Position numbers and translations under genes: made by a program
The notes under the pieces: model-generated
Told to the model about the DNA's origin: nothing
Seen by the model: only the letters and a program-made list of their open reading frames with translations
Database searches by the model: none
Assembly: GCF_900108505.1 (NCBI RefSeq)
Contig: NZ_FNWU01000007.1
Coordinates: forward strand, 34,087 to 98,086
Length of the DNA: 64,000 nt
DNA from: Halopenitus malekzadehii
GTDB lineage: Archaea; Halobacteriota; Halobacteria; Halobacteriales; Haloferacaceae
Direction: 5' to 3'
Shown here: piece after piece, positions 20,140 through 45,600 of the stretch
Layout of the letters: each line of letters begins with the position of its first letter
Numbering within the stretch: position 1 is the first letter of the stretch

Positions 20140-20141
20140 AG

Positions 20142-27991: not shown

Positions 27992-30013
27992 TTACTGGGG
28001 TGGTGTCGATGGGAGCACGTCATTTAGGTGCTCAGATAGCTCTTCAAGATTAGTTGCTCTGAAGTGTTCAGTGAGCGCGCGCATTTTCGGATCTTTTGGA
28101 AGGACAACGCCATTTCCGTACTCGGAGAACGCTTGCTCTATTATGGTGCGGTAGGTTTTGCTGGTCGCATAGCCAACAATGGCATCGAACTGTGAGCCGT
28201 ATTCCTCGAGGTAGGAGACCAAACGGTCCGCGACGAGTTGTTTGCGCTGTTTCTCAGCGTTTGTCAGCACGTACTCGTATGATTTAATCTGCGAGAGACT
28301 CTCGTACTGCTCGGGTACGGGGCCGTACATACCGGAGACAGTTACTTTGTGAATCTTACTGCTCCACTCAGCGGTTGCGTCTGCCACGACACGGTGTGTT
28401 CGGGAATTAGAATACGGCTTAGTTTGGCTACACGGGAGAACGAGTAGTACGCGCTCATCACCGACCTGGTAGTCCTTCCGTTGAAGAATGTTGAAGTCTT
28501 CCGGTGTGTGTTCAAGCGAGATCTCTTGGTCATCGACTGGAATATCCAAATCAAGCCGTTCCTGCTCTGCATCACTTTGATCGGCGGTTAGTCGATTGTA
28601 GCCGCGCTCACGGAGCTGCTGTGCCAATTCACGGTCTCGGACTGTTGCCCGTTTTAATGCCCGCTTGATGTTCCCCACATCGTTGCGAGCCATCTTGGCA
28701 ACGTATTCAAGCAACTTGCCGTCACCGTCGTTGATCAGCTCCCGCACATAATTCATTTCATCTTGGTAAACACAGAAGTTATGATAACTCATTAGTGCAT
28801 AAAAATCGCTCTTCATATACTTTCCATCTGGATCATACGACTCGCTGTCGTACATCGTGACCTGTAGTTGCTCGAAACCTATCCGCCGTAGATGCTCACA
28901 TGCGGGACATTGACAGCCCCAGTCGTCGGGAATCTGATCCGCAGTGAATTTCGACCAGTCCGCTACCCATCGTGCGTCGGCTGTCCGGTCGACATCGACA
29001 CCAAAATCACCCAAGTCGTGTGTCGAAGCGTTCGGATTCCGGACGAATTTCTCATCTGAAACTCCAATCTCTCGATTGATGAATTTCTTGAACTGTGCTG
29101 CTTGCATATAGCTTGACGAGTCAAATGAATCCGCGCCAAGAAGCGTCAGGAGCGCCGTGAACTTCCCACTAATCCCGAATAAATGAAGCCCGAGATCATT
29201 TTTTCTATCCGCAGGAATCGCATCCTTCGCACCTTGCACGATGTCAACCAGCATTTCGACGTTCGTTCGGAGTGGGACGAGTGACCCGATTGCAAATCCC
29301 TCAAATGACTTGTCAATGTGCGTCGCACGGTCAAGGAATGTCCCAACGTACCAATTGATCGTTTCGTAGTCGTGACCATGAATAGCGACATATACCGCGG
29401 GCGGATCTGACTGATCCTCCAAGAGTTCAAGACAGCGTATGGCGCTGTCAATACTGTCTTCCATTCGTTGAGTCGTCTCCTCATCGTTCAGATTCGGTGG
29501 GATCGGGTAGTCTAGGGTAGCGATAATGTCAGCGCCATAATCGAGCTGTAAGTCTAGAATACTCTCTGGATTCGTGTAGATGGCCCACTCATTGTCATCG
29601 CCTCCCTCCGTTGGCGGGTCACCGAACGTGTCGGAGTTTAGAAGCTTGAATCCGCCTGAGTCTACAAACAACGGCTTGGTGAAATTCTCCGGCTGTGAGT
29701 GATACGGCTTGACCGGTTTATGATCAGTGAAGTGATTATGGATCGGTTTCGAGCGCCAGTTCTCAAGCGATTCGGGAGTGATATTGAAATCCAAAAAACT
29801 CATCGCTTGGAACATCGCACCTTGAAACTCGGGTTCTCCGAAGAGATGATTCCTCAATCGACTCCAAATTCCGCCGGACTTTTCGTTGGGTCCACCGATG
29901 AAATTGACTACGGGAAAGAACGCTGGTGTCTGAACATCGCCGTGTGGTGTGTGGATAGTACCGCGGCGTGCGTTGCCAGCATCGTCAGTCGTGTCGGTCT
30001 CAAACGATGCCAT
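27992..30013 (-). CDS. dpdA: DpdA-like DNA 7-deazaguanine transglycosylase fused to an ArcS-type domain
   Basis: A 673-residue protein. The first ~420 residues are a tRNA-guanine transglycosylase (TGT)-like barrel beginning RRGTIHTPHGDVQTPAFFPV. Active-site features are DSGGFKLL (near 117), GFAIGSLVPL (near 235), and FDSSSY (near 298) carrying the likely nucleophile Asp. The zinc set CQCPAC (near 365-371) is followed by YHNF. The C-terminal ~150 residues start VLLVLPCSQTKPYSNSRTH (near 525-541), which fits the archaeosine synthase motif PC-X3-KPY-X2-S-X2-H exactly. DpdA inserts preQ0 into DNA in bacterial Dpd islands; ArcS acts on preQ0 in tRNA to make archaeosine. The neighbours favour DNA over tRNA as substrate. 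Substrate and product are inferred. Confidence 0.8.
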   Translation of the reverse strand: MASFETDTTDDAGNARRGTIHTPHGDVQTPAFFPVVNFIGGPNEKSGGIWSRLRNHLFGEPEFQGAMFQAMSFLDFNITPESLENWRSKPIHNHFTDHKPVKPYHSQPENFTKPLFVDSGGFKLLNSDTFGDPPTEGGDDNEWAIYTNPESILDLQLDYGADIIATLDYPIPPNLNDEETTQRMEDSIDSAIRCLELLEDQSDPPAVYVAIHGHDYETINWYVGTFLDRATHIDKSFEGFAIGSLVPLRTNVEMLVDIVQGAKDAIPADRKNDLGLHLFGISGKFTALLTLLGADSFDSSSYMQAAQFKKFINREIGVSDEKFVRNPNASTHDLGDFGVDVDRTADARWVADWSKFTADQIPDDWGCQCPACEHLRRIGFEQLQVTMYDSESYDPDGKYMKSDFYALMSYHNFCVYQDEMNYVRELINDGDGKLLEYVAKMARNDVGNIKRALKRATVRDRELAQQLRERGYNRLTADQSDAEQERLDLDIPVDDQEISLEHTPEDFNILQRKDYQVGDERVLLVLPCSQTKPYSNSRTHRVVADATAEWSSKIHKVTVSGMYGPVPEQYESLSQIKSYEYVLTNAEKQRKQLVADRLVSYLEEYGSQFDAIVGYATSKTYRTIIEQAFSEYGNGVVLPKDPKMRALTEHFRATNLEELSEHLNDVLPSTPPQ

Positions 30014-30086: not shown

Positions 30087-31637
30087 CTACAGTCTGTCCT
30101 GAACCGTGACAATATGGATATTATGCCGACGACCATTATTATATATCAGTCGGTTCTTCTCGAGGTCAATCGTAACCTCTCCACTATGATATCCTGAACG
30201 CTCAAGCTCGCTCAGCTCATCGCGGTCGCCGTACGACCAACAAATGATTTTATCGACGCTCTCAAGCGGTTTATCTGCCTTAAAATGATCTGTGAGCCGA
30301 CGATGGATCGAACTCGCATAGAGGTTGGTATCTTGACGCACCAACGCATTGACCTCTGCATTTGGGTCGTAATCTTCAATTGTAATCTCCGGCTCAGCTC
30401 CAAAGCGGTTCGAGCGCTCTAATCCAAGGACGACTTCGGCGTCGTTCGATGGCGTGAACCGATCACGCTCGTGAATCCGTTGCTCGCGCTTTTCGATGGA
30501 AGATTGTTGGGATTCTGCGCGACGGGTGAGTTTCGCCTTACGACGGTGGGACAAGTAGTCTTTGAACCACGGATCTGATGCGATCTTCGAAAGGTAGTGA
30601 CTGAGTTCCTCTACGATTGTCTGATACACCGGGCTAGACTTGTTCCGTATCTTTTCGCGGTTTGCCGACAACTCAAGGTCTTGGCAGTTTGCAATGAAGA
30701 AGAAATGGAGGAACTCGTTGTCGTGTGAGATGGTGTCATTGACTCGTTCAACTTTGATATGATCTTTTGCCAGCCAGACGCCGAACTGTGCCGAGTGCTT
30801 CCCGTAAGTAGGAAGCTCGTTACGAGCGTCTTTACCTCCTACCATTCCAACCACTTCTACAGTTGTTTCAGTTCCATTTTCGGTCTCGGCGGTGAGTTCC
30901 CGTGGCGGGTAGTGTTTACACATCCGCGATTCCGAGAATTGGCCTTCTCCGGGCTCCCGCTGCTCGGACGGGAACTCAAGCTTGTTGTTCATTACCAGTC
31001 GGTCTCGTGTGTCATCAATCTCGTCTCCGAGGATGACCGTTATCTCCATTTCTCGGAAATCATCTGTGAAGAAGTGACCTGTTGATCCGGCGAGCGTCTT
31101 CCATTTCAGGTAGTGCTCGATCTTGTTGTAGGTAAGCGATGCTGGCGAGAAACCGTAGCCGGATTTAAATCCGGTAATACGAATATGTGTCCCGGAGTTC
31201 CCTTCTTTGACTGTCTCCTCATTCAGCACATACTCGGGCATAGTCCGGTTATTGAGCTTTTCCCACGGCTGATCCATCTGTGCGCGTAAGTTGGTCCCGT
31301 TCTTCGTGGTATTGACGAGTACCTCTTCGCTTTTGTAGAAAATTTTTGTTCCGTGACCTTTGTACCCGATCGAGCCGTTTTGGTGGCCTCGTTTCGTGGA
31401 ATTTCCGAGATCAAAGAACGACTCAAGATCAGCGTGATCCATTCCCTCTCCGTCGTCTTCGATAACGATTTCTGATCCAATCGATCGGTCTCGAATGGTA
31501 ATTTCCACTTCCGTCGCACCGGCATCATAACTGTTCGACAGCGACTCGCGGATTACTTCAAGTGGGTCCTCAAAGTCGCTAGCGATCTCTAAAAATTCGT
31601 TTACTTCGTTTACTTGTGGTGTTTTCGTCGTTGACAT
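30087..31637 (-). CDS. GHKL (Hsp90/MutL/Morc-like) ATPase
   Basis: A 516-residue protein with a GHKL ATP-binding fold. The N-box is IRESLSNSYDAGAT (near 28-41), motif G1 is EDDGEGMD (near 58-65), and G2 is GSIGYKGHGTKIFY (near 87-100). A second domain and a charged coiled-coil-like region (RRKAKLTRRAESQQSSIEKREQRIHERD) follow. It begins directly after the stop of the upstream TGT-like gene (TGA then ATG). Such ATPases often act as ATP-gated clamps on DNA. Bacterial Dpd modification uses a ParB/ATPase partner, DpdB, which is not seen here, so this protein may take that role. That is inference. Confidence 0.75.
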   Translation of the reverse strand: MSTTKTPQVNEVNEFLEIASDFEDPLEVIRESLSNSYDAGATEVEITIRDRSIGSEIVIEDDGEGMDHADLESFFDLGNSTKRGHQNGSIGYKGHGTKIFYKSEEVLVNTTKNGTNLRAQMDQPWEKLNNRTMPEYVLNEETVKEGNSGTHIRITGFKSGYGFSPASLTYNKIEHYLKWKTLAGSTGHFFTDDFREMEITVILGDEIDDTRDRLVMNNKLEFPSEQREPGEGQFSESRMCKHYPPRELTAETENGTETTVEVVGMVGGKDARNELPTYGKHSAQFGVWLAKDHIKVERVNDTISHDNEFLHFFFIANCQDLELSANREKIRNKSSPVYQTIVEELSHYLSKIASDPWFKDYLSHRRKAKLTRRAESQQSSIEKREQRIHERDRFTPSNDAEVVLGLERSNRFGAEPEITIEDYDPNAEVNALVRQDTNLYASSIHRRLTDHFKADKPLESVDKIICWSYGDRDELSELERSGYHSGEVTIDLEKNRLIYNNGRRHNIHIVTVQDRL

Positions 31638-32879
31638 TCAGAAGTACCCCCCGAGTGATTCGTTTACAACGCGATGCGCGTGCTGTTGCATCGACTTTTC
31701 TCGGCCCAGAGACTGCTCGATATACGAAATCAGCGCTTCGTCTCCCGGAGTTTGAATTGCGGATTGGATACGTTTTATTTCCTCTTTTTGGATGATCAGG
31801 TTATGCATTGCAACGGTACCGAGTTTGTCCTTCTGGTACTCCACGTTCCCTTCCATCCGATTAACTAACACGTCATCACTACAGACCTGACAGTCACATT
31901 CTGTAAAATCGACTTCGTCTATGGGCTCTGAATTGTACAATGATGTATCGTATTTCCCGTTAATCGCGGAGTGAATATATGATGATGAATCAAACGTGTC
32001 TGCACCGACTGCTGCCAAGAGAGGAATCGCACTAGATGAGATCCCAAGCACGTGGAGTGGGAGTTCCTCAAACCCCCAGTCACTCAAAACTTCACGGCAA
32101 TCACTCACTGCAGTGATCAGCTTCCCCTTATTATCTTTGAGTGGAACGAGACTCCCGAGGGCGACCCCATCAAATTCACGATGGACACGGTCCTGACCGA
32201 TGACTTTCTCAATTTCTGTGAGAAATGTATCGAGCATTGAATAGTTGTACCCATGGAGTGTCAGATATCGCGTGTCGTCTCGAGTTGTGAGGTTAAGGAA
32301 CTCGTCGACGTTTTCGGCTGTAAGTCGTGCTTTCTCGACACGAGTCAAGTAGTCATCGTCCGGCTCAATTGGTCGATCAAGATTTACAAGAACGTCTCCA
32401 CCAAGTTTCCGTTGTATTTCAACGATTGCTTCTTGATCGACTTCGACCTCAAAGTCGCTGCCATCTAAAGTTCCGTCTCCGAGAAATTTGAACCCACCTG
32501 AGTCAAGGAAAAGGGTGCCATTAAAATCGAACACATCGCGGTCTCTGATTGGTTCGGAGATGTAGTCTTCGTACCGTTCTCTTGAGATACCGTAGTCCGT
32601 GAGTGACGAAACAGAGGTCATCACACCATCGAAATATCGACTGTAATCACCACCGTTTACGACATCGTCGCCGTTTATGAACTCCTTTATTGTACGGTGG
32701 ATCCCACCGCCGTAAAGGCTGGAATCGGTGCCACCGGCGTAGAAGTTCACCACCGGTAGCAGGTTGGGTGTTTCCAACTCGGTATCGTCAATCCTGAGCA
32801 CACCGCTTCGAGCGTCTCCAGCCTCGCTAATAATCTCGAACAGTCCGTCATCAAGACGTTGTGAGCCGGAAGGGGCCAT
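31638..32879 (-). CDS. Second DpdA/TGT-like transglycosylase paralog
   Basis: A 413-residue TGT-family protein without the ArcS-like extension. It keeps FLDSGGFKFL (near 125), GVALGSLVPL (near 240), FDSSSYIH (near 297), and the zinc set CDCQVC (near 327-332) followed by MHNL. The catalytic Asp residues and all four zinc ligands appear intact. Similarity to the 27992 protein is clear (DSGGFK, GSLVPL, FDSSSY) but the two diverge in the N-terminus. It overlaps the preceding DUF6884-like gene by 1 bp and abuts the GHKL gene, so expression is coupled. The pair may form a heterodimer, as paired TGT subunits do elsewhere, or modify different sequences. Confidence 0.78.
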   Translation of the reverse strand: MAPSGSQRLDDGLFEIISEAGDARSGVLRIDDTELETPNLLPVVNFYAGGTDSSLYGGGIHRTIKEFINGDDVVNGGDYSRYFDGVMTSVSSLTDYGISRERYEDYISEPIRDRDVFDFNGTLFLDSGGFKFLGDGTLDGSDFEVEVDQEAIVEIQRKLGGDVLVNLDRPIEPDDDYLTRVEKARLTAENVDEFLNLTTRDDTRYLTLHGYNYSMLDTFLTEIEKVIGQDRVHREFDGVALGSLVPLKDNKGKLITAVSDCREVLSDWGFEELPLHVLGISSSAIPLLAAVGADTFDSSSYIHSAINGKYDTSLYNSEPIDEVDFTECDCQVCSDDVLVNRMEGNVEYQKDKLGTVAMHNLIIQKEEIKRIQSAIQTPGDEALISYIEQSLGREKSMQQHAHRVVNESLGGYF

Positions 32880-33418
32880 CAGGTAATCACCGCGGGAACA
32901 GTGTCCGACCGAACGAATCGCTTCAGCTGTTTTCCCTTCTCCCCGATACCGTCCCCTTGGACTGTCGATATGTCGACATCACACCGATCGGATAAATCAC
33001 CAACCGCTTGTAGGTACTCCTTTCCCAAGTTTAGGACAATCTCGTCGTATCTCTTTTCTTCGATACGTTTACGAATAGCATCGGTCACCTGATCTCGGAG
33101 TTCCTCAGCGCGAGAAGTGGTCATCCGTCGGTCGTACGTAGTTATCGCGTCCTCAGTGTCGATGATTCCGTATTCTGCAGAGAGTATACAGATGTCGATA
33201 TCGGGATCGAAGGCCTCCTCTCGTTTCGCCTTTTTGATAATTCTGAAAAAGTATCCGTCGTAGACGTCTAGTGCCTGTGTCGGCTCCGTCACCTGATTCT
33301 TTGTGGCCGAGCAGGACTGTACCAGCAGTGAAGGCATTGAGAGTTTATCCAACGCGGGGGACCTAAAATCTTCCCACGTACCGGCCCGGCGACTAATCAA
33401 AGAAGTACGCCTGTTCAT
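32879..33418 (-). CDS. DUF6884-like protein, partner of the TGT paralog
   Basis: A 179-residue soluble protein. The core begins MPSLLVQSCSATKNQ (Met at 33337 is an alternative start) and continues VYDGYFFRIIKKA and DIDICILSAEYGIIDTEDAITTYDRRM, the usual pattern of DUF6884/YaaA-like domains. SCSATK resembles the PCSQTK of the ArcS-type domain in the 27992 protein but lacks KPY-X2-S-X2-H. It could be a detached processing or binding domain for 7-deazaguanine. Stop and next start overlap by 1 bp (TGATG), giving strong coupling to the TGT paralog. Confidence 0.65.
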   Translation of the reverse strand: MNRRTSLISRRAGTWEDFRSPALDKLSMPSLLVQSCSATKNQVTEPTQALDVYDGYFFRIIKKAKREEAFDPDIDICILSAEYGIIDTEDAITTYDRRMTTSRAEELRDQVTDAIRKRIEEKRYDEIVLNLGKEYLQAVGDLSDRCDVDISTVQGDGIGEKGKQLKRFVRSDTVPAVIT

Positions 33419-34721: not shown

Positions 34722-35513
34722 ATGACCCGAGAAAGGGGGGACACATCTCCGAATATGAAGCCCGGGCCTAGAGAGATGCGTTCAAAAGCTCGAGGGAAGA
34801 TCTCGAAAGCAGCGTTCACGAACCGAGAGGCCGGACCTTTCTCGAAAGAGTATCTCTCAGGGAGGTCTATCTATGCGCGTCTCCAAAAGGGCGAGGTCAT
34901 CCAATATCTTCTTGTCAACAAGTCTGATGGTGTTATGGTCCATTCAGCAGACGGCGCGGAAAGTGAGTCGATAACCGCTGGTTCCAACTATCGGTCGGTT
35001 ATGGCTATTACTGATCGTCGAATCCAGTTTGCGCTTGGGGGACACGAGGACACTATATTAGAAATCAAGGACAAAGAAGTGACTGGGGCAGATTTTCAAA
35101 CCAACCCATGGGAAAGAAGTATTACTGTCACAACAGAGTCGAAACAGTACAAATTTCCCGTTAGCATAGAGGAATCATCAGATCACGAAGACGCTGTCAA
35201 GTACATTCAGGATTACCTTGTTCTTGAGACATCTATCACAGAAACCGGCGTCACATCAGATAGCTCTTCTACATTGGTTAGCGAAAGTAAGGTATCTGAG
35301 CCGCAGTCTCCCCCCGACAAGATCCCCCCTGGAGAACTGCAAGAAGTGAACGGCATAACCGATACGATTGAAAGATCACTTCGCGGATCTGGATTCGAGA
35401 CTCGGAGCGACCTGAAGAAAGCGTCACTAAACGACCTCGCCGAAGTCGCGGATATCAGCGAACAGGTTGCGATGCGAATCAAACTTGACGTCGGCGGAGA
35501 ATCGAGAGAGTGA
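34722..35513 (+). CDS. PH-like domain plus helix-hairpin-helix protein
   Basis: A 263-residue protein. Residues about 50-170 look like a bacterial/archaeal PH-like domain (YLSGRSIYARLQKGEVIQYLL, SVMAITDRRIQFALGGHED, SKQYKFPVS). A disordered linker follows, and residues about 210-260 form a helix-hairpin-helix tail (LQEVNGITDTIERSLRGSGFETRSDLKKASLNDLAEVADI). The HhH suggests DNA binding. It lies 49 bp before the large helicase gene on the same strand and may open the restriction operon, although a possible TATA box sits between them. Confidence 0.6.
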   Translation: MTRERGDTSPNMKPGPREMRSKARGKISKAAFTNREAGPFSKEYLSGRSIYARLQKGEVIQYLLVNKSDGVMVHSADGAESESITAGSNYRSVMAITDRRIQFALGGHEDTILEIKDKEVTGADFQTNPWERSITVTTESKQYKFPVSIEESSDHEDAVKYIQDYLVLETSITETGVTSDSSSTLVSESKVSEPQSPPDKIPPGELQEVNGITDTIERSLRGSGFETRSDLKKASLNDLAEVADISEQVAMRIKLDVGGESRE

Positions 35514-35562: not shown

Positions 35563-38500
35563 ATGCACTCACCACAGCGAACACTCGACTCCGCGATTGA
35601 CCGTGCAGCAGAGATTACCTGGTGGAACCGCCAGATGACTCGGCTCGACGAAGTCGTCGGCGAGGATGAAGCAACATCGTTCGTTCGGAATGAAACCGTC
35701 GAACAAAAGGGTCCATACGTCGAGTTCGTCGACGCTCCGAAGTTCCATACGCGATCAGCAGTAGAGTTCCTCGGTGATCTCGACTACAGTGACGAACTCA
35801 TCAACGCGATCGTCGATGACCTATTTGATGGCGACTCGAGCGGATCACTCTATGAACATCAAGCAGAGACGATCGAGTCGATTTCGGCTGATTCGAGCGA
35901 CAACGTCTTGGCGGTACCAACTGCGACGGGAAAGACGGAGTCGTTCTTTTTCCCGATCCTTGATCACTGTATCTCCACGGACGAACCGGGGTTAAAGTCG
36001 CTAATCATCTACCCAATGAAGACTCTCGGTGTCGACCAGCTCAACCGGTTTATTTCGTACCTTGACCGGATCAACCGCCACCGTGACCCCGAAGACAGGA
36101 TTACGATCGGGATTTGGGATTCCGACACACCGACTCGAATCGGGACCCGTGAACACGAAATAGAGGAGGGCTCGTACGTCCGAGGACTCGAATGTCCACG
36201 AGAGGCGGGTGAGAAACTCCGGATGCTTGGCGATATGACGGTGGGAACGGAAGATAACAAATATTCGTGGATCCGAGTAACACGAGACGCTATCAGGAAC
36301 GGCGCAGATATCCTGCTCACGAATCCCGAGGCGCTCGACCATATGTTTGTGAGCAATAACTCGGAAACGCGTCAGATACTCGGGGAAGACCCAGGTCAAC
36401 ATCCCGTGGAGCACGTTGTCTTCGACGAAGCGCACATTTGGAGCGGAATCTCCGGTGCCTCAGTTCGCCTCCTCTCGGAGCGGCTCAAATCGTTCTACGC
36501 GGAGAGAGATCCCCAGATCACGATGGTCTCTGCCACCGTGGACAACCCCAGGGAGCTCGCGCACAAACTCACTGGAACGCCCGAAGCCGAAATCAACTCA
36601 ATCGATTTCACGCCACGGAAGTTCTCGATCCAATCATCGCCCTCGTTCGATCGGTTTGCGCCGTGTGACCTCGGTGAGGTTGCCGCTGTACTCGCCCTCG
36701 CCGACCTCGGCGAATTCACCCCAACTGACCTTGCCGAAGCCGGGCTCGGGGACGCCTACGAGACGGTCAACAAGATCGGTCTCGTGTCTGTCAGTGCTGC
36801 TGATCTCGTGACTCTCCCAACAAGTCTCGATTGGGTTCGGAACCCCATCGCTGACGAAGTCGATGAACTTCTCGCGGACAACACGTTTGACTCGGTGGCG
36901 GAGATTGCGTCCACTGAAGCGGGACAAAATCATCTTGCCGAAACGCTGCTTAAGACCGGCGGTCTCGATAGCGAGTGGTTCGATTTCGTCAGCTCTGAGG
37001 TGCCAGAGGCTGCTGCGTTCGCCAGTTGGTTCGACGAAGGAACGACCGGTGACGTTGGGTTCAGACACTACGACGGCCTCTTGGCAGAACTCGCCGACGA
37101 AGGTGTCGACGAGACTGCCGGGGTGCTGGACGCAGTGATGGCGTTCGGCCGCCTTGCGGGAATGGTGACGGAGAAGTACCACGTCTTCCTGAAGCCGCCG
37201 ACTCAGGCGTACCTCTGTGAGTGCTGCAGCGACGTTACGCGGGATAAACATTGTACGTCGTGCGATACACGAAACGCGGAAATCCAGTTCTGTAAGCGGT
37301 GTCACTATCCGTTTGTCGAATACGATACGGATGACGACGAGGAGCATTTCCGACCCTTCGACCAGGCTGCTCCCGTTGACGACTGCCCGGGCTGTGGTCA
37401 GTGGCCCCGGCTCACAGATATCGGCGTACCGACGACGAGCCTCCTGTCGTATATGTTGACGGAGATATGCCGAACGAGCCCGTCGAAGAAAACGCTCGTC
37501 TTCTCGGATTCTCACAGCGCCGCTGAGTCTGTAGGTGACAGTATCATCGGAACAGAGTACGGCTTGATGGCGGAGACACTCTACGTACAACATCTGATCG
37601 AGAACGGAGGCAGCGCCGGTAACTACGAGGCGTTCCGTGCAGTCGCCGACGAACTCCGGGAAGCGTACTGGGAGCCACTCATTCAGAACGAAATCGACGA
37701 GGACGGGACAGCGTACAACTTCCTCCGCACGCTTCTTGACGATATCGAGGCTCACGCGATGCTTCACAACGCGGAAAATCTTCTCGATAGCGCACTTGTC
37801 ACCGCGGAGTCTGTCACGCAGTTCGATGATCCGGTCGAACGTGTCGTTGCGCACGAGGCTTACAAGCTGTTCGTGAAGGATCCTCGGGTGGGGTTCTCGA
37901 AGAACACCATCGAGATCGAGGGGCTCTCGCTCCCCAAAATTGCCGAGCGAATTTCGTCTCGCTCTGGCTACGATACTGACACCGTCCACAACGTCCTCCC
38001 TGACGTCCTTGATGCGTTGCTTGACGATTCGATCGTCGTCGAGCAATCGTGGGAAGAGGTCAGGCAAACGATAGCGAACGCGAACGTTAGTGAAGACCGG
38101 AAAGAGGAAACCGTCGAATACGTCGAGCGGGTCCGCGACGAGTTCAACGAGGCCGAAATTCGTGACGAGGAATCAGAAACGGGAATTCTCACCCGTGTTG
38201 TACGCCGCGACAAGTCGACGCTTACACTCCTAGAGCGGGCGTCATTCTGTACTGACTGCTACCGCTCGTACCCCATCGGCGACGCCTCACTCTCGGCTTG
38301 TCCCGACTGTGGGACCCCGATCGAATCGTACCAGCGGTTCACTCGTGACGAGGACGGAATGCTCGTCGCCGACCCTGGATACGCGGACGTCGACTCTGGC
38401 TGGTCGTATGCCGTCGACCACTGGGCTCACGACGTCACGACGCCGATAAGGAATGGTGCCGATCCGGAGTTCATCAGTGTCGGCATTCACAAGGGAAACG

Positions 38501-40293
38501 TTCCACACACGCTTCGCGGAGCGATCGAGGAGGGGTTTCGTAAAGACGACCCGGACGTCAACATCGTCAGCGCGACGCCGACGATGGAACTGGGAGTCGA
38601 CATCGGGAGCCTCGATACCGTCGCCCAAGTGGGTATTCCACCCACGCTTACGAACTACGTCCAGCGAAGCGGTCGAACCGGCCGGACACGCGGGAGTTCC
38701 TCACTCGTCGCCACCGCCATTCGGGGTGAACACCCGGTGGACGGGCATTACTACGGAAATCTCGAAATGTTTCTCGATGACTTCGAACCCGTACGTGTCC
38801 CTGATCCTTACGAGTTTGAAGAGCTCCTCGCTGGTCATATCGTGACTGAGACGTTCGCGTATCTGGCCCGTAACCCACACCCCTCCAACGTCTTCGAGAG
38901 GAAATACCTCCTGAATGAGACCAACCAGAACTTGGACGCGTTCGTTCACAGTGTCGAGGAGAGTCTCGACATTCTACAGGAGTTCCTGCTTGCAGAACGC
39001 CGAGAAGCGCTCGAGCGGCATCTGCAGTCAATCTTCGGGCAGCAGGGTATCGATGCGTTCGAGTCGGTGTTCGTCGACAGTGGACCTCTTTCGATGCCTC
39101 ACCGTATCGAAAAAACATTCTCACAGATCATATCGATGTCGGGGTCGGCGGAGACCAACAAAGCGTTCACTGAATCAAACAACCGCCTCGATCAGTGGCT
39201 GGGCCGGCTCGGTTATTTAGCGAACTACCGCAGCTTCGGCCAGCAGTTCCCTGTGAAGTTCTCTGGACGTTCCGAGGGGATCGAGTTCGAGGGATCCGGT
39301 CGACTCTACGATATGTTCCCCGGCCCGGAGAATGACTTGGGATCGCTCGTCACCCTCCACGGTACGGACTATATCGTGGATGACGTCCGCGGAAGTTCGA
39401 CACCGCTCACGACGGTTATGGTGTGTACGAACGAAGACTGTGAACGTCCGTTCGAAAGCTATGAACTCGACACGGAACGGTGTCCGTACTGTGATACTCC
39501 CCTCGAAGAAACGAACGTTCATGGGGTGAGTTCGGTCGAGTGTAAACCGGCACGTGGGGGACAGAAGCGGTACAACACCCAGGGACTGATGACGACTGCT
39601 GTCTCCGATAGCGAAATTCCCCCCGAAAAGACTGCCTCGATGACTGTGTTTGGACTGGATTGCGAGGCGAGCTACGGGGAACTTGACGTGACGGACTTCG
39701 TGTACGCGTACGAGCGCCGTCACTCGGCGAGCCCCGACAAGTCGATCTTCCGGTCGCAAGCACTCATCGAGCGCGACCCGTCTTCATCGTCGCCCGACAG
39801 CGGGAAGTCGTGGGAGGACCGCCTCGAGGAGAGCGAGACCGAAGAGTACGCACCGGTCGGCCAGCAGTATCACACGCAGGGTCTGACTCTCGAATTCGGA
39901 CAGAAGGACGTTGCCGAACGACTCGATGTCGCTGGCGATGACGCGATATGGCCACAGGCGCTCGTCAGCCTGAAACAGGCCCTCGAGAAAGCGATCGCCG
40001 TCGTGGCACAGTGTGAACGAACGGATTTCCGAGTCGACACAGACAAGACTGAATCGACGATTACCGTTCGCGTCGTGGATAGCCGCCAGGGTGGGAACGG
40101 GATCGCTTGGCAGGTCTGGAACGCGCTTGATGACATCCAGGCCCGGGTCGGAGAGGTCGCCGACTGCGACCGATGTGAGGACTTCTGTGACGAGTGCTTA
40201 CTCCTTTCGCGCACGCCCGCCTACTACCTCGAGAACGACTTACTCGATAATCAGGTGCTCAGTGCCCTAACCACCGTTCCCTCCAACATATGA
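35563..40293 (+). CDS. Giant SF2 helicase with zinc clusters and DUF1998-like C-terminus
   Basis: A 1576-residue helicase. Walker A is PTATGKTESF (near 120), the DEAH box is VFDEAHIWSG (near 286), and SATPTMELGVDIGS (near 1005) and QRSGRTGRTRG (near 1034) are in the second core. Between the two cores are zinc clusters (CECCSDVTRDKHCTSC, CKRCHYPF, CPGCGQWP near 548-610). Another CTDCYRSYPIG/CPDCGTP pair lies near 895 and CTNEDCERP/CPYCDTP near 1290. The C-terminus has GGNGIAWQVW then CDRCEDFCDECLL (near 1535), as in DUF1998 helicases. It overlaps the next gene by 4 bp (ATGA). A role in unwinding foreign DNA in a Dpd-type restriction complex is inferred. Confidence 0.85.
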   Translation: MHSPQRTLDSAIDRAAEITWWNRQMTRLDEVVGEDEATSFVRNETVEQKGPYVEFVDAPKFHTRSAVEFLGDLDYSDELINAIVDDLFDGDSSGSLYEHQAETIESISADSSDNVLAVPTATGKTESFFFPILDHCISTDEPGLKSLIIYPMKTLGVDQLNRFISYLDRINRHRDPEDRITIGIWDSDTPTRIGTREHEIEEGSYVRGLECPREAGEKLRMLGDMTVGTEDNKYSWIRVTRDAIRNGADILLTNPEALDHMFVSNNSETRQILGEDPGQHPVEHVVFDEAHIWSGISGASVRLLSERLKSFYAERDPQITMVSATVDNPRELAHKLTGTPEAEINSIDFTPRKFSIQSSPSFDRFAPCDLGEVAAVLALADLGEFTPTDLAEAGLGDAYETVNKIGLVSVSAADLVTLPTSLDWVRNPIADEVDELLADNTFDSVAEIASTEAGQNHLAETLLKTGGLDSEWFDFVSSEVPEAAAFASWFDEGTTGDVGFRHYDGLLAELADEGVDETAGVLDAVMAFGRLAGMVTEKYHVFLKPPTQAYLCECCSDVTRDKHCTSCDTRNAEIQFCKRCHYPFVEYDTDDDEEHFRPFDQAAPVDDCPGCGQWPRLTDIGVPTTSLLSYMLTEICRTSPSKKTLVFSDSHSAAESVGDSIIGTEYGLMAETLYVQHLIENGGSAGNYEAFRAVADELREAYWEPLIQNEIDEDGTAYNFLRTLLDDIEAHAMLHNAENLLDSALVTAESVTQFDDPVERVVAHEAYKLFVKDPRVGFSKNTIEIEGLSLPKIAERISSRSGYDTDTVHNVLPDVLDALLDDSIVVEQSWEEVRQTIANANVSEDRKEETVEYVERVRDEFNEAEIRDEESETGILTRVVRRDKSTLTLLERASFCTDCYRSYPIGDASLSACPDCGTPIESYQRFTRDEDGMLVADPGYADVDSGWSYAVDHWAHDVTTPIRNGADPEFISVGIHKGNVPHTLRGAIEEGFRKDDPDVNIVSATPTMELGVDIGSLDTVAQVGIPPTLTNYVQRSGRTGRTRGSSSLVATAIRGEHPVDGHYYGNLEMFLDDFEPVRVPDPYEFEELLAGHIVTETFAYLARNPHPSNVFERKYLLNETNQNLDAFVHSVEESLDILQEFLLAERREALERHLQSIFGQQGIDAFESVFVDSGPLSMPHRIEKTFSQIISMSGSAETNKAFTESNNRLDQWLGRLGYLANYRSFGQQFPVKFSGRSEGIEFEGSGRLYDMFPGPENDLGSLVTLHGTDYIVDDVRGSSTPLTTVMVCTNEDCERPFESYELDTERCPYCDTPLEETNVHGVSSVECKPARGGQKRYNTQGLMTTAVSDSEIPPEKTASMTVFGLDCEASYGELDVTDFVYAYERRHSASPDKSIFRSQALIERDPSSSSPDSGKSWEDRLEESETEEYAPVGQQYHTQGLTLEFGQKDVAERLDVAGDDAIWPQALVSLKQALEKAIAVVAQCERTDFRVDTDKTESTITVRVVDSRQGGNGIAWQVWNALDDIQARVGEVADCDRCEDFCDECLLLSRTPAYYLENDLLDNQVLSALTTVPSNI

Positions 40294-41222
40294 CGAAGCC
40301 ATCGACGTTCAATCGGCTCAGGAACGCCGATATCGCAGCCGTCCACGACGACACCGGACAGACGTACTGGTGGATGCTTCGTTCGCTTCCGGCCATCAAC
40401 TATCTCGGGTTCCAGACGTTCACCTACCCTACGTCGTGGCGCTCGCTCAACACCGGTGGGGAGTTCCCGTCGTACACGAATCAGTACGACTACCTCGACT
40501 ATGACTACAAAGTCCTCGGGCAACTCGAAGAGGACGCGTTTCGCAACGATTTGGTCGTCACGACGAGCGAGTATTATGAGAGGGAAACCCAGTACTCAAT
40601 CGACCATCTCGTCAGCCGCTACGCAACTCGTTCAGAGACGCTCATCGTGGTCACGGACTCACATCGGTTCACGCCACGCGGTGGGCAACGTCCGCTCTAC
40701 CAGGAACAGTTCGTCGAAAACGTTGGCTCTTATCAGCGTCTGTACACTGCATTCGAGCAGGTCTACGAGGACGTCGGGTGGAATCTCCCGCTACTGGACA
40801 CAAAGAACCTCTTCATCCATGACAACGCGAACCTCTATGAGTTTATCACCGGGGAGGAACTCGAGGATACCGAAGGCCTGTTCAAAGTTCTTCCTGATGC
40901 ACCGTTCCTGCCCCTTTACACCGTATTTGGGCAGATCTTTGCGCGACCAGACGAGTATGGTTCCGTTCCACTCGACGAGGATGACGTGACGGGCCTTGAA
41001 CGGTGGCTACGCCGGCGTATCGAGTGGGATCGGGAAACTGCGTCCGGGGTCGCTCGAAGCCTCAACCGTGCGGTGAGCGACGATGGACAGACGTTCGACC
41101 CGTCCTACGCGGCACGGACGCCGATAGTTAAGGATGCCGCAGACAGGGCAACCGAAATCAACCCCGACGAATCATCAATTCATAAACGATACCATACCTG
41201 GTTACAACAGCCTAACAGATGA
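40290..41222 (+). CDS. Unknown operon protein between helicase and DpdG-like gene
   Basis: A 310-residue soluble protein translationally coupled at both ends (ATGA overlap upstream, 4-bp overlap downstream). It has the composition of a globular alpha/beta protein (WWMLRSLPAINYLGFQTFTYPTSWRSL, SETLIVVTDSHRFTPRGG, LYTVFGQIFARPDEYG). No catalytic motif was recognised. The tight coupling to the helicase suggests a stoichiometric subunit of the same complex. I cannot assign it to a named Dpd protein. Confidence 0.7.
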   Translation: MTKPSTFNRLRNADIAAVHDDTGQTYWWMLRSLPAINYLGFQTFTYPTSWRSLNTGGEFPSYTNQYDYLDYDYKVLGQLEEDAFRNDLVVTTSEYYERETQYSIDHLVSRYATRSETLIVVTDSHRFTPRGGQRPLYQEQFVENVGSYQRLYTAFEQVYEDVGWNLPLLDTKNLFIHDNANLYEFITGEELEDTEGLFKVLPDAPFLPLYTVFGQIFARPDEYGSVPLDEDDVTGLERWLRRRIEWDRETASGVARSLNRAVSDDGQTFDPSYAARTPIVKDAADRATEINPDESSIHKRYHTWLQQPNR

Positions 41223-42058
41223 GTAGTAGCGAAGGATATCTCCTCAACGCGATTCAGACGCCGGGACCACTCCTCCCAGTATATCGATCGATCAGTCACG
41301 GGAGCGAGACGAAGTCTCACATCAAGAGCGACACCCAGATTGACTCTGGGCTTGATTCCATCCTAGACGGGCTTAGGCTCCTTCGAATGATCGGCAAAGA
41401 AGAAGAAGCGTACTACGCTCGTGACTATGAGTGGGATGTGGGAGACGAGCGCTGGAACTTCCGACTCACCGCCCTCCATAACCTTGCACAAGAATGCCAA
41501 CCAAGTGACTGGGGCAAGCAAGCCTCCGTCTTGCTCAACTACAAGTACTTACTCGATAAGGATATCCAGCATTTCGAAAATAACGAAGAACAGGTTTACT
41601 CCGATATCGACGACTGGTACGCCGAAATCAATTATCGGCCACAGTCCCAGCAGGGACTAATAGTACATAATGATAATAAGTTCGCAAACTGGACACGGCT
41701 CGTTCATTTCCTCGGACTGGTTCATAAAGTGAGTGGCCGAGAACATACTGTCTACCCTGACCCGACTTTGATCCGACACTCGCTTGAACTCGCTGCTGAA
41801 GACAGAGGGATAAATATCGATGGGACGCCCGGCATCGTAATTGGACAGTATCTCCGCTGGCTTCGTGAGAATCTGATCTATGTCGAAATGACATCTGACG
41901 GCGTGATCCCTGAAGGGATTGCTCGTATCCTGTTCGAACTCATTCGGGACGGTGAAATCCGGGCAACCGAGTACGGAGACGCCGGTGCCGTTGGCCTCGG
42001 TGGTATCCCTCCGTACGACGGAATCGACGGCGAAGCAAACGCAATCAAACTGATCTGA
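41219..42058 (+). CDS. dpdG: Probable DpdG-like subunit
   Basis: A 279-residue mainly helical protein. It begins EGYLLNAIQTPGPLLPVYR, and the repeated helical segments could include winged helices (DSILDGLRLLRMIGKEEEAYY; IPEGIARILFELIRDGEIRAT). It sits directly before the large P-loop ATPase with 1 bp between stop and start, matching the order G-H-I-J-K of bacterial Dpd restriction genes. The identification rests on size, order and neighbours more than on sequence motifs. Likely a structural or DNA-binding subunit. Confidence 0.5.
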   Translation: MSSSEGYLLNAIQTPGPLLPVYRSISHGSETKSHIKSDTQIDSGLDSILDGLRLLRMIGKEEEAYYARDYEWDVGDERWNFRLTALHNLAQECQPSDWGKQASVLLNYKYLLDKDIQHFENNEEQVYSDIDDWYAEINYRPQSQQGLIVHNDNKFANWTRLVHFLGLVHKVSGREHTVYPDPTLIRHSLELAAEDRGINIDGTPGIVIGQYLRWLRENLIYVEMTSDGVIPEGIARILFELIRDGEIRATEYGDAGAVGLGGIPPYDGIDGEANAIKLI

Positions 42059-42059
42059 T

Positions 42060-44930
42060 ATGAGTACAATTCAGGAAGATACAGAGCTCCAGTGTCCGCA
42101 CTTCGAGGCAGTCGACGAGAAGACGCTTCGGCAACTGTTCTCGAAAGTCGCAGCGGTACGCTCAGACAACAAGGACCTATTCGAGTACACACACCGTCCG
42201 ATCAAGGTATTTCGGTCGCCGCAGGGAACTCGCTCAGAAGAAGAGGTCGTCGGGGAGGAGGAAGTGTACCGCGAATTCACCGACCAACGAGTCGGGAATT
42301 TCTCCGTCGTTATCGAGGGAGAGGTCGGAACCGGAAAGTCAGAGTTGTGTGCTTTCTTATCACACCAGCTTGAGCAAGACGGTCGACCAATCCTTCACGT
42401 CGATAAAGACGACGACCTAATGACACTCCTCTCGGAACGAATTCCCGAGTTCTACGAGAAGCATTTCAATGAAGAACTGCCCGGTGCATCGAACTTTCAG
42501 CAACTCCGAGAAGATCTCAAGAAAAACGGGAGTGTCGTCGCCAACAATGCAACGTCCGGTGCGATTCTTAACCTCAGTGCGCGCGGTAACGAAGTTGACG
42601 CAGAGGGGAAAGAAGAGAAGATCCGAGAATTCGTTCAGGACCAACTCTCACTCCTCGTCGAGAAGGGTGAATATGCGAAAGAGATCAAGTTTGTTACCGA
42701 GCAAGCGTATCGCCGGAACGATTTCCTGCAGGTCATTGAGGACTCGATCGATGTCGAAGACGCAGTTGAAGCGTTTAACGAGGAGCTCTGGCGGGAGATT
42801 CGAGAGCGATATCAGACGGCATCCCTCGGCGATGTCCTTGAACGTGTGGGCGACCGGTTCACGGATACGCGGCCGGTAATCATCTTTGAGGACTTCGCTA
42901 TCACGGCAATGGAGGGGAAGCGGCTCCGGAACTATATGGAACGCGATAAGCCAAGCGACAATTGGGACTTCGTGGTCGCTGGCACTCGAGACTCGACAGA
43001 CGTTCTCCACACGCAGACTGCTGAGGACCGTTTCGAGTTTTATCGAACGAATCGTCAGAACTCGAATAGCGTCCTCTTCCTCGACGAGGACTCCGCTGTT
43101 GGTTTTATTCGGCCGTATCTCGGCTACTTCAAGTCCTTCGACGGGAGCGTGGAGTACGACCGTAGTGGGGACGGGCTTGACCTCTCGTTAAACCCTGCTC
43201 CTTCTGAGTCTATCTGTGCTGACTGCGGGTTCTGTGATGAATCATTTCGAGATCTCTTCCCGTTCAACGAGCCGTTCCTTGAACGCGTCTACGCTGGGCT
43301 CCAAGACGACGAGCAGTCCCCGCGAGAGTACGTTATGGCTGTATTCGATGTACTCCGTGATTACTACGAAGGGTACATCGACGCGCCGTCGAGTGCTGAT
43401 CGTCTAGCAGTGTTAACTAACAAAGTTGATCCAGCCACCCCAATCTACGAGAGCGCAGAATCTCTCGCAAACCTTGCGCGGTGGTACGGGGTTCCGACAG
43501 CTGACGGGATTGAGGTTGACGCCAGGTTCATCTCTGCCTTCGGAGAATCCAAGGCAGTGGAAGAAACTGACGGGGTCACCCGTTCGGATGGTATTGTCAC
43601 AATTCCGACTGACCTCGGATCCACGGATCCACCTGGACCGAAACCTACAGGACCGAAACCGCCTGACCCGCCAAAGCCCAGCAAAGCTGAGCGGCTAATC
43701 CAAGACCTCCAACCGAACGTCCAGCCGTGGCAGAGCAATCCGGGGGAGTTCTCTGATATCACCCGATACCTCCGTATCGGTCTGCGTGCTGCAATCAAAC
43801 ATCTCACCGATGACTTCGAACTTTTCGATGGGATGGGACTGCGGTATAATCTGAGCAGCCAGAAAGATCCGTTCGTCTTCAGGAGTCAACAGCAGTCCCC
43901 TGATCAAAATCAAATCGTCATCGATCCGCAGGAATTTCGGCTATCCGATCTGAAGAACCTCCTAGAGTTCGGTATTTACCGAGAGGAGAAGAGATCACAG
44001 GCTGACTTTGACGAGTTGCTGCGAGGACTCGGAACGCAATTGACAGGATATGCACGACAGTGGCAGCAGGAGATCATCGAACAGGACCTTCGTTCGGATC
44101 TAAAGTTCTTCAAAAAGAACGCGGGGCACAAATTCGAAGACTTCGCTCTCGCGGGCTACGCGTATGTGGTTCTTCTAAGCTCTCCGTTCGAGGAAGTCAC
44201 CGCCGAGAGGTTGAGCGGACGGTTCAGCAAGTCCGGTTCGTACACCCTCGATTCGGAGCTTCGAGAAGCATTGAAACAAGAACTCTCGACAGATGGGTTC
44301 AATAATCTCGTCAAGTTTATGAACCAAGCTGACCGGTTCGAAGAGATGGTCAGTGCCTTCTTCGGGGCGAACGCGAACACGCTCGATGTGGCTCGTGTTC
44401 GTGAACGGCTCGAAGAGCATCCCCCTACTGCCGTCTTCGAAGGGCTTGGTCGGGGTCGAATCCAGCGTGTCTCCTCTCGTGTACGTTTCGATACGGACAG
44501 CAAAATCAGGGATATTGCTGATGTCTCGTACGACCTCAACCGCGTGTTTGAGGAGCTGGAAGACGAGTATAGAGAGAATACGATCACCACAATCTCCGAT
44601 GAACTCGCGTCTGTCTCTATCTCGAATATCACTAGCATTCTCGAAACACTTCGGACGTATGACCATGTGGACACTGATATGGTTGAGTCACTCGGTAAGT
44701 TCGTGGCGTTAGATCAGCAAGCTATCGACGAAGCCGCGGACGCCGCTCGTCTCGCTAGTGACCTTGAGAACAGGTCAGATGACGAACAGCTACAAGCAAT
44801 ATTGATTAGCCTAAAACTAACGACAACCAACGTCTACAAGCGTTACAACAATATTTCCATTGTCGGCGGCGGCACCGGACCCGACTTTGCGAAGAACTTC
44901 CTCGAGATTGGAGGATATTATGTCGACTGA
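42060..44930 (+). CDS. dpdH: Large P-loop ATPase, probable DpdH
   Basis: A 956-residue protein. The N-terminal ATPase has Walker A EGEVGTGKSELCAF (near 87-100) and the candidate Walker B PVIIFEDFAI (near 275), followed by VAGTRDST. A Cys cluster CADCGFCDE lies near 384. A Pro-rich linker (GPKPTGPKPPDPPKP near 528-542) leads to a long helical C-terminal half. Size, fold order and operon place fit DpdH of the bacterial Dpd restriction arm. It overlaps the next gene by 11 bp. Likely an ATP-driven motor or switch of the restriction complex. Confidence 0.65.
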   Translation: MSTIQEDTELQCPHFEAVDEKTLRQLFSKVAAVRSDNKDLFEYTHRPIKVFRSPQGTRSEEEVVGEEEVYREFTDQRVGNFSVVIEGEVGTGKSELCAFLSHQLEQDGRPILHVDKDDDLMTLLSERIPEFYEKHFNEELPGASNFQQLREDLKKNGSVVANNATSGAILNLSARGNEVDAEGKEEKIREFVQDQLSLLVEKGEYAKEIKFVTEQAYRRNDFLQVIEDSIDVEDAVEAFNEELWREIRERYQTASLGDVLERVGDRFTDTRPVIIFEDFAITAMEGKRLRNYMERDKPSDNWDFVVAGTRDSTDVLHTQTAEDRFEFYRTNRQNSNSVLFLDEDSAVGFIRPYLGYFKSFDGSVEYDRSGDGLDLSLNPAPSESICADCGFCDESFRDLFPFNEPFLERVYAGLQDDEQSPREYVMAVFDVLRDYYEGYIDAPSSADRLAVLTNKVDPATPIYESAESLANLARWYGVPTADGIEVDARFISAFGESKAVEETDGVTRSDGIVTIPTDLGSTDPPGPKPTGPKPPDPPKPSKAERLIQDLQPNVQPWQSNPGEFSDITRYLRIGLRAAIKHLTDDFELFDGMGLRYNLSSQKDPFVFRSQQQSPDQNQIVIDPQEFRLSDLKNLLEFGIYREEKRSQADFDELLRGLGTQLTGYARQWQQEIIEQDLRSDLKFFKKNAGHKFEDFALAGYAYVVLLSSPFEEVTAERLSGRFSKSGSYTLDSELREALKQELSTDGFNNLVKFMNQADRFEEMVSAFFGANANTLDVARVRERLEEHPPTAVFEGLGRGRIQRVSSRVRFDTDSKIRDIADVSYDLNRVFEELEDEYRENTITTISDELASVSISNITSILETLRTYDHVDTDMVESLGKFVALDQQAIDEAADAARLASDLENRSDDEQLQAILISLKLTTTNVYKRYNNISIVGGGTGPDFAKNFLEIGGYYVD

Positions 44931-45600
44931 CAGTGAGTCGCTCGAAGCCAAGCTGCAAAGCGTACAGAAGCAGTACCGACGTCAGCACCTCGCTAATGAA
45001 CTTGACGAACTAGCGGAAACGATGGAGGAAACACTCCTTCAGCGTGAACTCGCAAGTGCGTTCTTCGACGAGTGTGTCGAGATCGATACCTCGGCGCGCC
45101 AGTCTGTCGATGAGGTTATGGATCTACTCGAACGAGGGGAGTACGAAACCATCGAGGAACGTCTCCCGGGGCTCGAATCAGAGGTAGAGAGTGCAGAGAC
45201 GACAGTACAGAACCGGATCCAGGAGCTTCGACTGAAGCATAATTCAACGGTTACCGCGATGCAGCGGCTGAACGATCGCGTCGAACGCGTGGACGAGTTG
45301 CGTCTCCGAGCTCTCGGCGGCCTCCTTGACGACTGGCGGTGGAAGGAGCACGTCTATTCGAAGGAGGATGTGACGTTTGAAGAGTTATCTCAGAATGCCC
45401 GCGAATACGGTCAGGAGATGCGTGAGGCGTTTGATGAACTTCAAGAGACGTTATTTGGCCACTATCCTCCGGATATCAGGTCGCTGATCGAGCGGATGAT
45501 CGATGACGAACGCCTCTCGTACGCCGATCTTAAACCCGAACAGCGGACGCTACTCGCTGAGTCAGATATCGGCGAATATATAGAGCTGACACTCTCGTAG
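44920..45600 (+). CDS. dpdI: Coiled-coil protein, possible DpdI-like subunit
   Basis: A 226-residue protein, highly charged and helical (LEAKLQSVQKQYRRQHLANELDELAETMEETLLQRELA; LESEVESAETTVQNRIQELRLKHNSTVTAMQRLNDRVERVDELRLRALGGLL). Long heptad-like stretches indicate a coiled coil. The ATG at 44920 overlaps the ATPase stop and follows a GGAGGA ribosome-binding sequence; a longer frame from 44860 is unlikely. The position between the ATPase and second helicase fits DpdI. The symbol is by order only. Confidence 0.5.
   Translation: MSTDSESLEAKLQSVQKQYRRQHLANELDELAETMEETLLQRELASAFFDECVEIDTSARQSVDEVMDLLERGEYETIEERLPGLESEVESAETTVQNRIQELRLKHNSTVTAMQRLNDRVERVDELRLRALGGLLDDWRWKEHVYSKEDVTFEELSQNAREYGQEMREAFDELQETLFGHYPPDIRSLIERMIDDERLSYADLKPEQRTLLAESDIGEYIELTLS

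Follow-up and report, generated by a model that had tools for sequence, protein, structure and literature searches.

A transglycosylase with a fused ArcS-like domain as a candidate DNA-modifying enzyme in a haloarchaeal defence island

Several described systems resemble the gene island reported here, from the haloarchaeon Halopenitus malekzadehii. BRIGADE, set out in a 2025 preprint by Bell et al., is reported only in halophilic archaea (PMC12458937), and Dpd islands were placed in eight bacterial phyla by a survey that required dpdAB (PMC11888242). The DNA of phage nt-1 is described as holding little deoxyarchaeosine (dG+) and more dPreQ0 (2′-deoxy-preQ0) and dADG (2′-deoxy-7-amido-7-deazaguanosine), and what homologues of archaeosine synthase (ArcS) do on DNA is treated there as an open point (PMC6884629). 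ArcS is also reported to accept preQ0 nucleotides that lack tRNA structure and to form a product that ArcTGT does not exchange back (PMC11298593). The subject of this study is an open reading frame (ORF) at 27992..30013 on the minus strand of a 64,000-nucleotide stretch (the window; NCBI RefSeq assembly GCF_900108505.1, contig NZ_FNWU01000007.1, positions 34,087 to 98,086). It begins with ATG and encodes a protein of 673 amino acids (aa), hereafter the fusion, in which a tRNA-guanine transglycosylase (TGT) half (residues ~1-470) is joined to a half resembling the core of ArcS (residues ~514-638).

Judged from its sequence, the fusion is a real, conserved protein with catalytic or motif residues in both of its halves, and the defence island around it is of a type already known. 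Both domain families are matched above chance, PF01702 (TGT) at 102 bits (cut-off 26.3) and PF17884 (DUF5591, which is the core of archaeosine synthase) at 60 bits (cut-off 26), and the TGT superfamily model TIGR00449 is also exceeded, at 96.6 bits (cut-off 47.6). An initial annotation had located the motifs DSGGF, FDSSSY and CQCPAC together with an exact ArcS signature in this one protein, and each is found where it was placed: the TGT motifs at residues 118-122, 297-302 and 367-372, with HN at 411-412, and the signature PCSQTKPYSNSRTH at residues 527-540 (28394..28435, minus strand). The superfamily features D118, D298, C367, C372 and H411 are present. The formula of the signature, PC-x3-KPY-x2-S-x2-H, is that of the annotation and was checked against sequences rather than taken from print; it fits 24 of 24 ArcS proteins (selected out of ~30 loci retrieved) and 25 of 26 fusions, both being selected sets. 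Against the whole-protein ArcS model NF040592 the fusion reaches 74.7 bits, below the cut-off of 440, and the ArcS of the host 804.9 bits. None of 29 fusions matches a PUA or TGT_C2 domain and all 29 have TGT and DUF5591; the host ArcS has both PUA and C2, and its DUF5591 scores 207.7 bits. Because the host genome has its own TgtA and ArcS, one each, on another contig, the window fusion is an extra protein.

Conservation was followed in two sets of homologues: 120 listed of 326, whose named members are haloarchaea, and 120 listed of 686 for the cyanobacterial form, whose named members are cyanobacteria, Chloroflexota, Poribacteria and others. Across 29 diverse relatives, the TGT half is invariant at D118, D298, H411 and N412 and the ArcS-like half at P527, C528, S529, K532, P533, Y534 and S537, and C367 and C372 are conserved to at least 90%. 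In the haloarchaeal set, D118 is kept in 119 of 120 (the other has a gap) and D298 in all 120, as are C528, K532, P533, Y534 and S537; P527 is kept in 119, and position 540 is H in 96 and Q in the other 24. The cyanobacterial-form set keeps D118 in 117 of 120 (one Y, two gaps), D298 in 120, P527 in 119 and the remaining motif residues in 120. Taken jointly, D118, D298, C528, K532, P533, Y534, S537 and H540 are retained in 95/120 and 117/120 relatives, respectively, the 25 haloarchaeal misses being the 24 with Q at 540 and the one gap. In support of the earlier proposal, both halves retain their key residues, but the middle zinc cysteine, C369, is aligned in only 72/120 relatives of the haloarchaeal set, compared with 120/120 of the cyanobacterial form, which weighs against a fully intact zinc site. 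That ArcS proteins have lost TGT features was borne out, since their TGT residues are degraded in the same columns (the D118 column is D in 4/8, and the D168 column is P in 6/8). Residue H212 is His in 119/119 haloarchaeal relatives with a letter there, in 120/120 bacterial ones and in 12/12 short TGTs (see below), and Gln in tRNA TGTs. Its identification with "histidine 196" of DpdA was rejected: H196 of the 9g DpdA aligns at H277, a residue common to TgtA, and the cyanobacterial and Haloarcula DpdA carry Gln at column 212.

A firm placement among tRNA-modifying enzymes had been set beforehand as refuting the initial interpretation, and this is not what the trees show. In a TGT tree of 69 rows, the fusions of archaea and bacteria form one clade (95/89), the short TGTs are their sister group (98/93), and next come six small TGTs from haloarchaea, of which L011 and L096 stand beside a DpdA, together with two TGTs from Firmicutes. 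A 98/98 split separates this side from TgtA, from ArcS and from bacterial Tgt. The tree omits the 9g DpdA (no profile match), four cyanobacterial TGTs (two large, two small) and the large protein of genome G130. In a second tree, to which two cyanobacterial DpdA were added (L111, which scores 485 bits with the curated DpdA model NF041059, and L112, annotated as DpdA), the group of fusions, short TGTs and small TGTs holds with 95/90 and TgtA plus Tgt with 98/97, and the position of DpdA is weakly supported (80/56, long branches); this tree omits 10 near-copies, the 9g DpdA, ArcS, the two Firmicutes TGTs, the large G130 protein and the badly aligned L011 DpdA. An Aeromonas hit (H3) was rejected as a DpdA, as it is an ordinary tgt by queA and secD (by eye) and a bacterial Tgt in the tree.

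The company of the fusion forms the other part of the evidence. The fusion is the last gene of a minus-strand operon in which a DUF6884 gene, a short TGT gene, a GHKL ATPase gene and the fusion gene follow one another with, in order, a 1-base overlap, zero gap and 73 bases. The DUF6884, DpdC-like protein (32879..33418, 179 aa) matches PF21818 at 49.1 bits (cut-off 30), and in its family a DpdC model matches 14/16 sequences and the best PADLOC model, the candidate PDC-M57A, 16/16. The short TGT (31638..32879, 413 aa; TGT 80.9 bits) has D126, D297, C328/C330/C333 and H359, none of which varies among 11 sequences including its own, and both it (123.3 bits) and the fusion (87.5 bits) fall below the cut-off of 350 of the TgtA model TIGR00432. 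The GHKL ATPase (30087..31637, 516 aa) matches HATPase_c_3 at 62.8 bits. DpdB has no row for 16 window proteins among the matches listed.

A divergent plus-strand operon begins with a bPH-like and helix-hairpin-helix protein (34722..35513; near the fusion in 7/38 genomes) and continues with a YprA-family helicase (35563..40293) that has an MZB domain, is closest to DruE models (139.5 bits) and is taken as ARMADA-like. Two proteins of no assigned kind, of 310 aa (40290..41222) and 279 aa (41219..42058), follow; each accompanies the YprA helicase in 24/24 loci and occurs in 24/38 genomes. Further along lie a 956-aa DpdH-like P-loop ATPase (42060..44930; NF041065 33.6 bits, E 1.5e-8, cut-off 450), a 246-aa protein with weak, scattered model matches only (44860..45600), a second YprA-family helicase closest to DpdJ (45681..49757; NF041067 154 bits, E 3.8e-45, cut-off 800) and a DpdK-like phospholipase D (PLD) nuclease ORF (49498..50172; NF041068 48.5 bits, cut-off 100; PLDc_2 32.5 bits, above cut-off), the true start of which is probably near the helicase stop. 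Genes for preQ0 synthesis lie beyond: queD (60446..60907; PTPS 74.3 bits, 67% to an annotated relative), queE (60907..61683; radical SAM, 66% to an annotated QueE) and queC (61796..62485; 243.8 bits), all on the plus strand. Ahead of them on the minus strand is a Vut_1 transporter (59597..60259; PF02592 134 bits), of the family that we take to include the preQ0 importer YhhQ.

Among 391 Halobacteria genomes, 46 were matched, of which 38 (the host included) have a full-length fusion, 5 the short TGT alone and 3 a more distant TGT. All but one of the 38 fusion genomes (37/38) also encode the short TGT at some position, although in one (G177) it is broken by stops. The distribution is patchy, with the fusion missing from two listed genomes of the same genus (G017 and G061). 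Halorubrum, for example H. lipolyticum DSM 21995 (L012), has a copy with 94% identity. Within ~20 kb of the fusion, or less at contig ends, DUF6884, short TGT and GHKL occur together in 33/38 loci, and also in all three of the short-TGT-only genomes retrieved (of 5); across 41 loci the three are all present or all missing. Since this triad is also found without the fusion, the data suggest two arms rather than one chain. The YprA helicase, the 310-aa and 279-aa proteins and DpdH occur together in 24/38 loci, the DpdJ-like helicase in 19 and the PLD nuclease in 11. queD, queE and queC are near the fusion in 14/38 genomes, which span 4/8 families, when ~1.3% would be expected at a density of one queC in 3.3 Mb (P 2e-17, or 3e-13 with two copies, kinship ignored). 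On a Haladaptatus plasmid (L009, 11223-24688), two different TGT-DUF5591 fusions lie with a short TGT, DUF6884, GHKL and an MkoA-like protein. In phage records the fusion was unmatched, one single-sequence scan of viral contigs returned 7 pattern-matching stretches and 0 relatives, and a search of phages for ArcS with the host ArcS gave weak Sulfolobus virus matches only.

The best reading of the island, to judge by these features, is a predicted 7-deazaguanine restriction-modification system with two transglycosylases, one of which is fused to its own putative nitrile-converting domain. We consider it on balance probable that the fused enzyme swaps guanine for preQ0 in the DNA of the host and converts the nitrile to an amidine-type base, a predicted self mark against the restriction genes of the island. 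In such a scheme, preQ0 would be supplied via the queDEC route and put into DNA by the fused TGT, and the ArcS-like half would add an amine (lysine, or glutamine-derived ammonia) to the inserted base; this conversion would also keep the TGT from removing the base again. The pathway first drawn, in which the fusion inserts preQ0 and takes part in its conversion to dG+, is changed by the neighbours, which include a DpdC-like gene and a second TGT that retains its catalytic residues, and dG+ may not be the only option as the product of the fusion. The short TGT and the DpdC-like protein would form a parallel arm, likely one producing dADG, in which the GHKL ATPase would stand in for DpdB. Cutting of DNA without the marks may then fall to the pair of YprA helicases together with the DpdH-like ATPase and the PLD nuclease.

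Several observations weigh against this reading. On the DNA side, the fusion has no match to NF041059 (cut-off 200; the short TGT reaches 24.1 bits and the positive control, L111, 485), and its best solved relative in a profile search of the Protein Data Bank (PDB) is the archaeal TGT arcTGT (1iq8; E 1.7e-25 for the fusion and 5e-29 for the short TGT), the DpdA structure 7ui4 being unmatched by both profiles and found by the L111 profile at 4e-91. The label "DpdA-type" given at first is therefore too loose, the more so as the tree position of DpdA is weak; by tree and company the fusion is, as far as sequence comparison goes, a DNA-side TGT outside the curated DpdA family. On the chemical side, a DUF5591 tree splits the fusions from ArcS with 100/100. 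The two sets agree at 15 positions, each with one letter in at least 85% of either set, and at five class-specific positions (560, 561, 583, 615 and 639) ArcS has T, S, V, H and T and the fusions have S, G, L, Y and P. The ArcS letters are found in 24/24 ArcS, except at the last position (22/24), and position 615 is H in 24/24 ArcS versus Y in 26/26 fusions of the tree and 240/240 listed relatives. Together, the split and the five positions imply that donor and product may differ from those of ArcS. The SGxYG motif of the fused domain also resembles the DUF6884 side (SAxxG), with TS in ArcS at that place. As for the company, the short TGT is missing from one fusion genome (G236), the YprA set is missing within ~20 kb in 14/38 loci and the PLD gene in 27/38, and four cyanobacterial fusion loci are all without a match to DUF6884, to GHKL or to a second short TGT. 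Since the host has a single full-strength queC, the one near the island, that gene serves tRNA too; queDEC as an island-only preQ0 supply was rejected for the host, whose genome has no second full-strength QueC. In genome G017, of the same genus and without the fusion, no full-strength QueC was seen. As to dG+ as a product, TIGR01210, which we take to be the model of RaSEA, the enzyme that completes archaeosine, is unmatched in 3/3 cyanobacterial fusion genomes (completeness unknown) and is above cut-off in the host and 6/6 other archaea checked.

A competing explanation is that the C-terminal half is a DpdC-like hydrolase, such that the fusion alone would make dPreQ0 and then dADG and the DUF6884 protein would serve the short TGT. 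The second motif would fit, SGxYG being near SAxxG and ArcS having TS at both places, as would the lack of a TIGR01210 match in the cyanobacteria and the existence of DpdA fused to DUF6884 in a Haloarcula (L011), genome G130 (L110) and Picosynechococcus (L111). However, in profile alignment (hhalign) the fused domain pairs with ArcS at 99.5% (haloarchaeal) and 99.3% (bacterial), versus 78% and 1.7% with DUF6884; the KPY-x2-S-x2-H block is ArcS-like and was not seen in DUF6884; and the operon already has a DpdC-like gene. We therefore regard the hydrolase as unlikely, albeit the strongest of the rivals. ArcS and DUF6884 are themselves joined with 90%, so it could be guessed that ArcS, DpdC and the fused domain belong to one wider family of nitrile-converting folds; the hhalign values are mixed, which keeps this a guess.

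As observations in their own right, the loci in which two TGTs are paired were opened as comparison matches and are not a sample. Haloarcula plasmid pHsi139 (L011) encodes a 969-aa DpdA whose C-terminal part includes a DUF6884-like stretch (28.8 bits, below the cut-off of 30) and a 346-aa TGT; genome G130 (L110/L096) has a 563-aa DpdA with a C-terminal DUF6884 and a 341-aa TGT; and plasmids of Picosynechococcus (L111) and Nostoc (L112) each have a ~700-aa DpdA and a ~310-aa TGT, the Picosynechococcus DpdA with an N-terminal DUF6884 domain. Two Firmicutes loci (L036, 8553-10450; L037, 887-2783) have a weakly TGT-like gene and a stand-alone DUF5591 gene as divergent neighbours, much like a split fusion.

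Bacterial relatives add a second perspective. The fusion is not confined to archaea, since a bacterial family exists: full-length cyanobacterial relatives share 30-34% identity, and DUF5591 occurs in 3/194 genomes of the cyanobacterial phylum (one being the L033 seed genome), each time in a ~620-aa frame and as the only DUF5591 of the genome. In four cyanobacterial loci (L033, L034, L198 and L199), a GmrSD_N (DUF262) protein comes after the fusion in 4/4, and a HEPN protein is next in the three whose stretch continues; the L198 locus also has, in between, a helicase whose closest model is DpdJ (172 bits, cut-off 800). Pfam was run on L033 and L198, and L034 and L199 were matched to L033 at 72-90%. 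If the bacterial fusion adds lysine, nothing known to us would trim the adduct to dG+. M. jannaschii ArcS is reported to use ammonium, asparagine or glutamine (PMC11298593), and direct formation of dG+ is therefore also possible for the bacterial fusion. A bolder form of the proposal, which we hold to be doubtful, is that one polypeptide plants preQ0 in chromosomal DNA and, at least in bacteria without a RaSEA match, leaves a stable amine-linked base (preQ0-lysine or a similar amidine conjugate), and that haloarchaeal DNA would bear two 7-deazaguanine marks, one per transglycosylase. An amino acid hanging on a DNA base as a self mark is not, to our knowledge, known from cellular DNA.

Other explanations fare less well. 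The fused domain might be a reader that holds or senses dPreQ0 and has no enzyme activity of its own, with the fusion and the short TGT forming a heterodimer. The presence of both TGTs in 37/38 genomes fits this idea, as do the other opened loci with two TGTs (L011, L096/L110, L111 and L112). It is nonetheless improbable, because both TGTs retain both aspartates and the H-N pair, so that neither looks like the dead partner of a heterodimer, the fused domain is nearly invariant at its motif residues, and the four cyanobacterial loci have no second TGT, the short-TGT query matching only the fusion. Less probable still is conjugation of a 7-deazaguanine to an island protein, as by Cap9/Cap10 in type IV CBASS: Cap10 is a TGT-family defence protein (PMC11996544), and its structure 9ntn is weakly found by both TGT profiles, but at E 0.0045 for the fusion and 8e-4 for the short TGT, compared with 1.7e-25 and 5e-29 for arcTGT, and no second full-strength QueC is in the genome as a candidate Cap9. 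The least credible rival is an RNA enzyme, a TgtA/ArcS paralogue for another RNA site, for although TGT plus DUF5591 is the domain pair of ArcS and arcTGT the best solved relative, the fusion has no PUA or C2, stands apart in the tree, keeps defence-island company, is patchy (38/391, missing in G017 and G061) and occurs in cyanobacteria whose only DUF5591 is fused. We know of no bacteria with archaeosine in tRNA.

Three further features of the window may be recorded. A GIY-YIG nuclease gene (26309-26833) adjoins the fusion; its relatives are near the fusion in 7/38 genomes, counting the window, and close to the short TGT in 3/3 short-only genomes retrieved. At 55063-59493 is a 1476-aa AAA helicase whose best defence match is MkoA, with relatives near the fusion in 8/38 genomes. 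At 17740-21713, a helicase with an MrfA Zn-binding domain overlaps an RNase_H_2 gene, and the two resemble the MrfA-MrfB repair pair.

In tRNA, insertion of preQ0 and its conversion are carried out by two separate proteins, and a widespread fusion with both sites conserved would permit a one-gene test of the role of ArcS homologues on DNA. If the proposal is true, it would show how a cell halts a reversible base swap, by converting the inserted base ahead of any reverse exchange. Fusions of TGT with an ArcS core and paired-TGT loci are now shown in archaea and bacteria; the named records of the fusions mostly carry the label "tRNA-guanine transglycosylase". The initial annotation knew of no described archaeal system with such a fusion, and this stands for the fusion itself, of which we found no description in the literature searched, a scope that left supplements aside; the surroundings, in contrast, appear to fit BRIGADE (PMC12458937), whose main text does not contain the terms "transglycosylase", "TGT", "DpdA" or "ArcS" and whose supplements, outside that scope, may depict the fusion.

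Finally, we compare the locus with the closest known systems. ArcS, which works with RaSEA, shares DUF5591, the signature motif and a TGT-like half in front. Its TGT is degraded, however, and the host ArcS has C2 and PUA, whereas the fusion keeps TGT residues, has neither domain and forms a separate deep branch. Phage nt-1 likewise combines a DNA TGT (DpdA2) and ArcS in one genome, but there these genes are separate and phage-borne, and the TGT is of the DpdA2 type (PMC6884629). In BREX-related capture systems, TGTs are reported from archaeal and bacterial defence loci and sometimes in two-domain fusions; there the fusion partner is GNAT rather than ArcS, and the authors found no DpdB or DpdC (PMC12839542). 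The Dpd system of Salmonella Montevideo (dpdA-K) is similar in having a TGT, a DpdC-like DUF6884 protein, DpdH-, DpdJ- and DpdK-like genes and a preQ0 supply, though all likenesses to the curated models except DUF6884 are below cut-off, the window has two TGTs, neither of them an NF041059 DpdA, and it has a GHKL ATPase, with no DpdB row among the matches listed. The island appears to fit BRIGADE type I, for which a halophilic archaeon, ARMADA-like and Dpd-branch YprA helicases, a PLD or PD-(D/E)xK nuclease and a predicted 7-deazaguanine cluster are given (PMC12458937). The corresponding features here are the nuclease with PLDc_2 above cut-off and DpdK-like at 48.5 bits, queDEC, and haloarchaea as the named relatives of the archaeal form; the two YprA-type helicases are candidates for the ARMADA-like and Dpd-branch pair, their best models being DruE (139.5 bits) and DpdJ (154 bits, below the cut-off of 800). 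One cyanobacterial fusion adjoins a DpdJ-like helicase, and this lies outside the halophilic archaea. What the present locus adds to BRIGADE type I is the modification operon, with its two TGTs and ArcS-like fusion, and we suggest that this operon offers a modification arm for BRIGADE systems.

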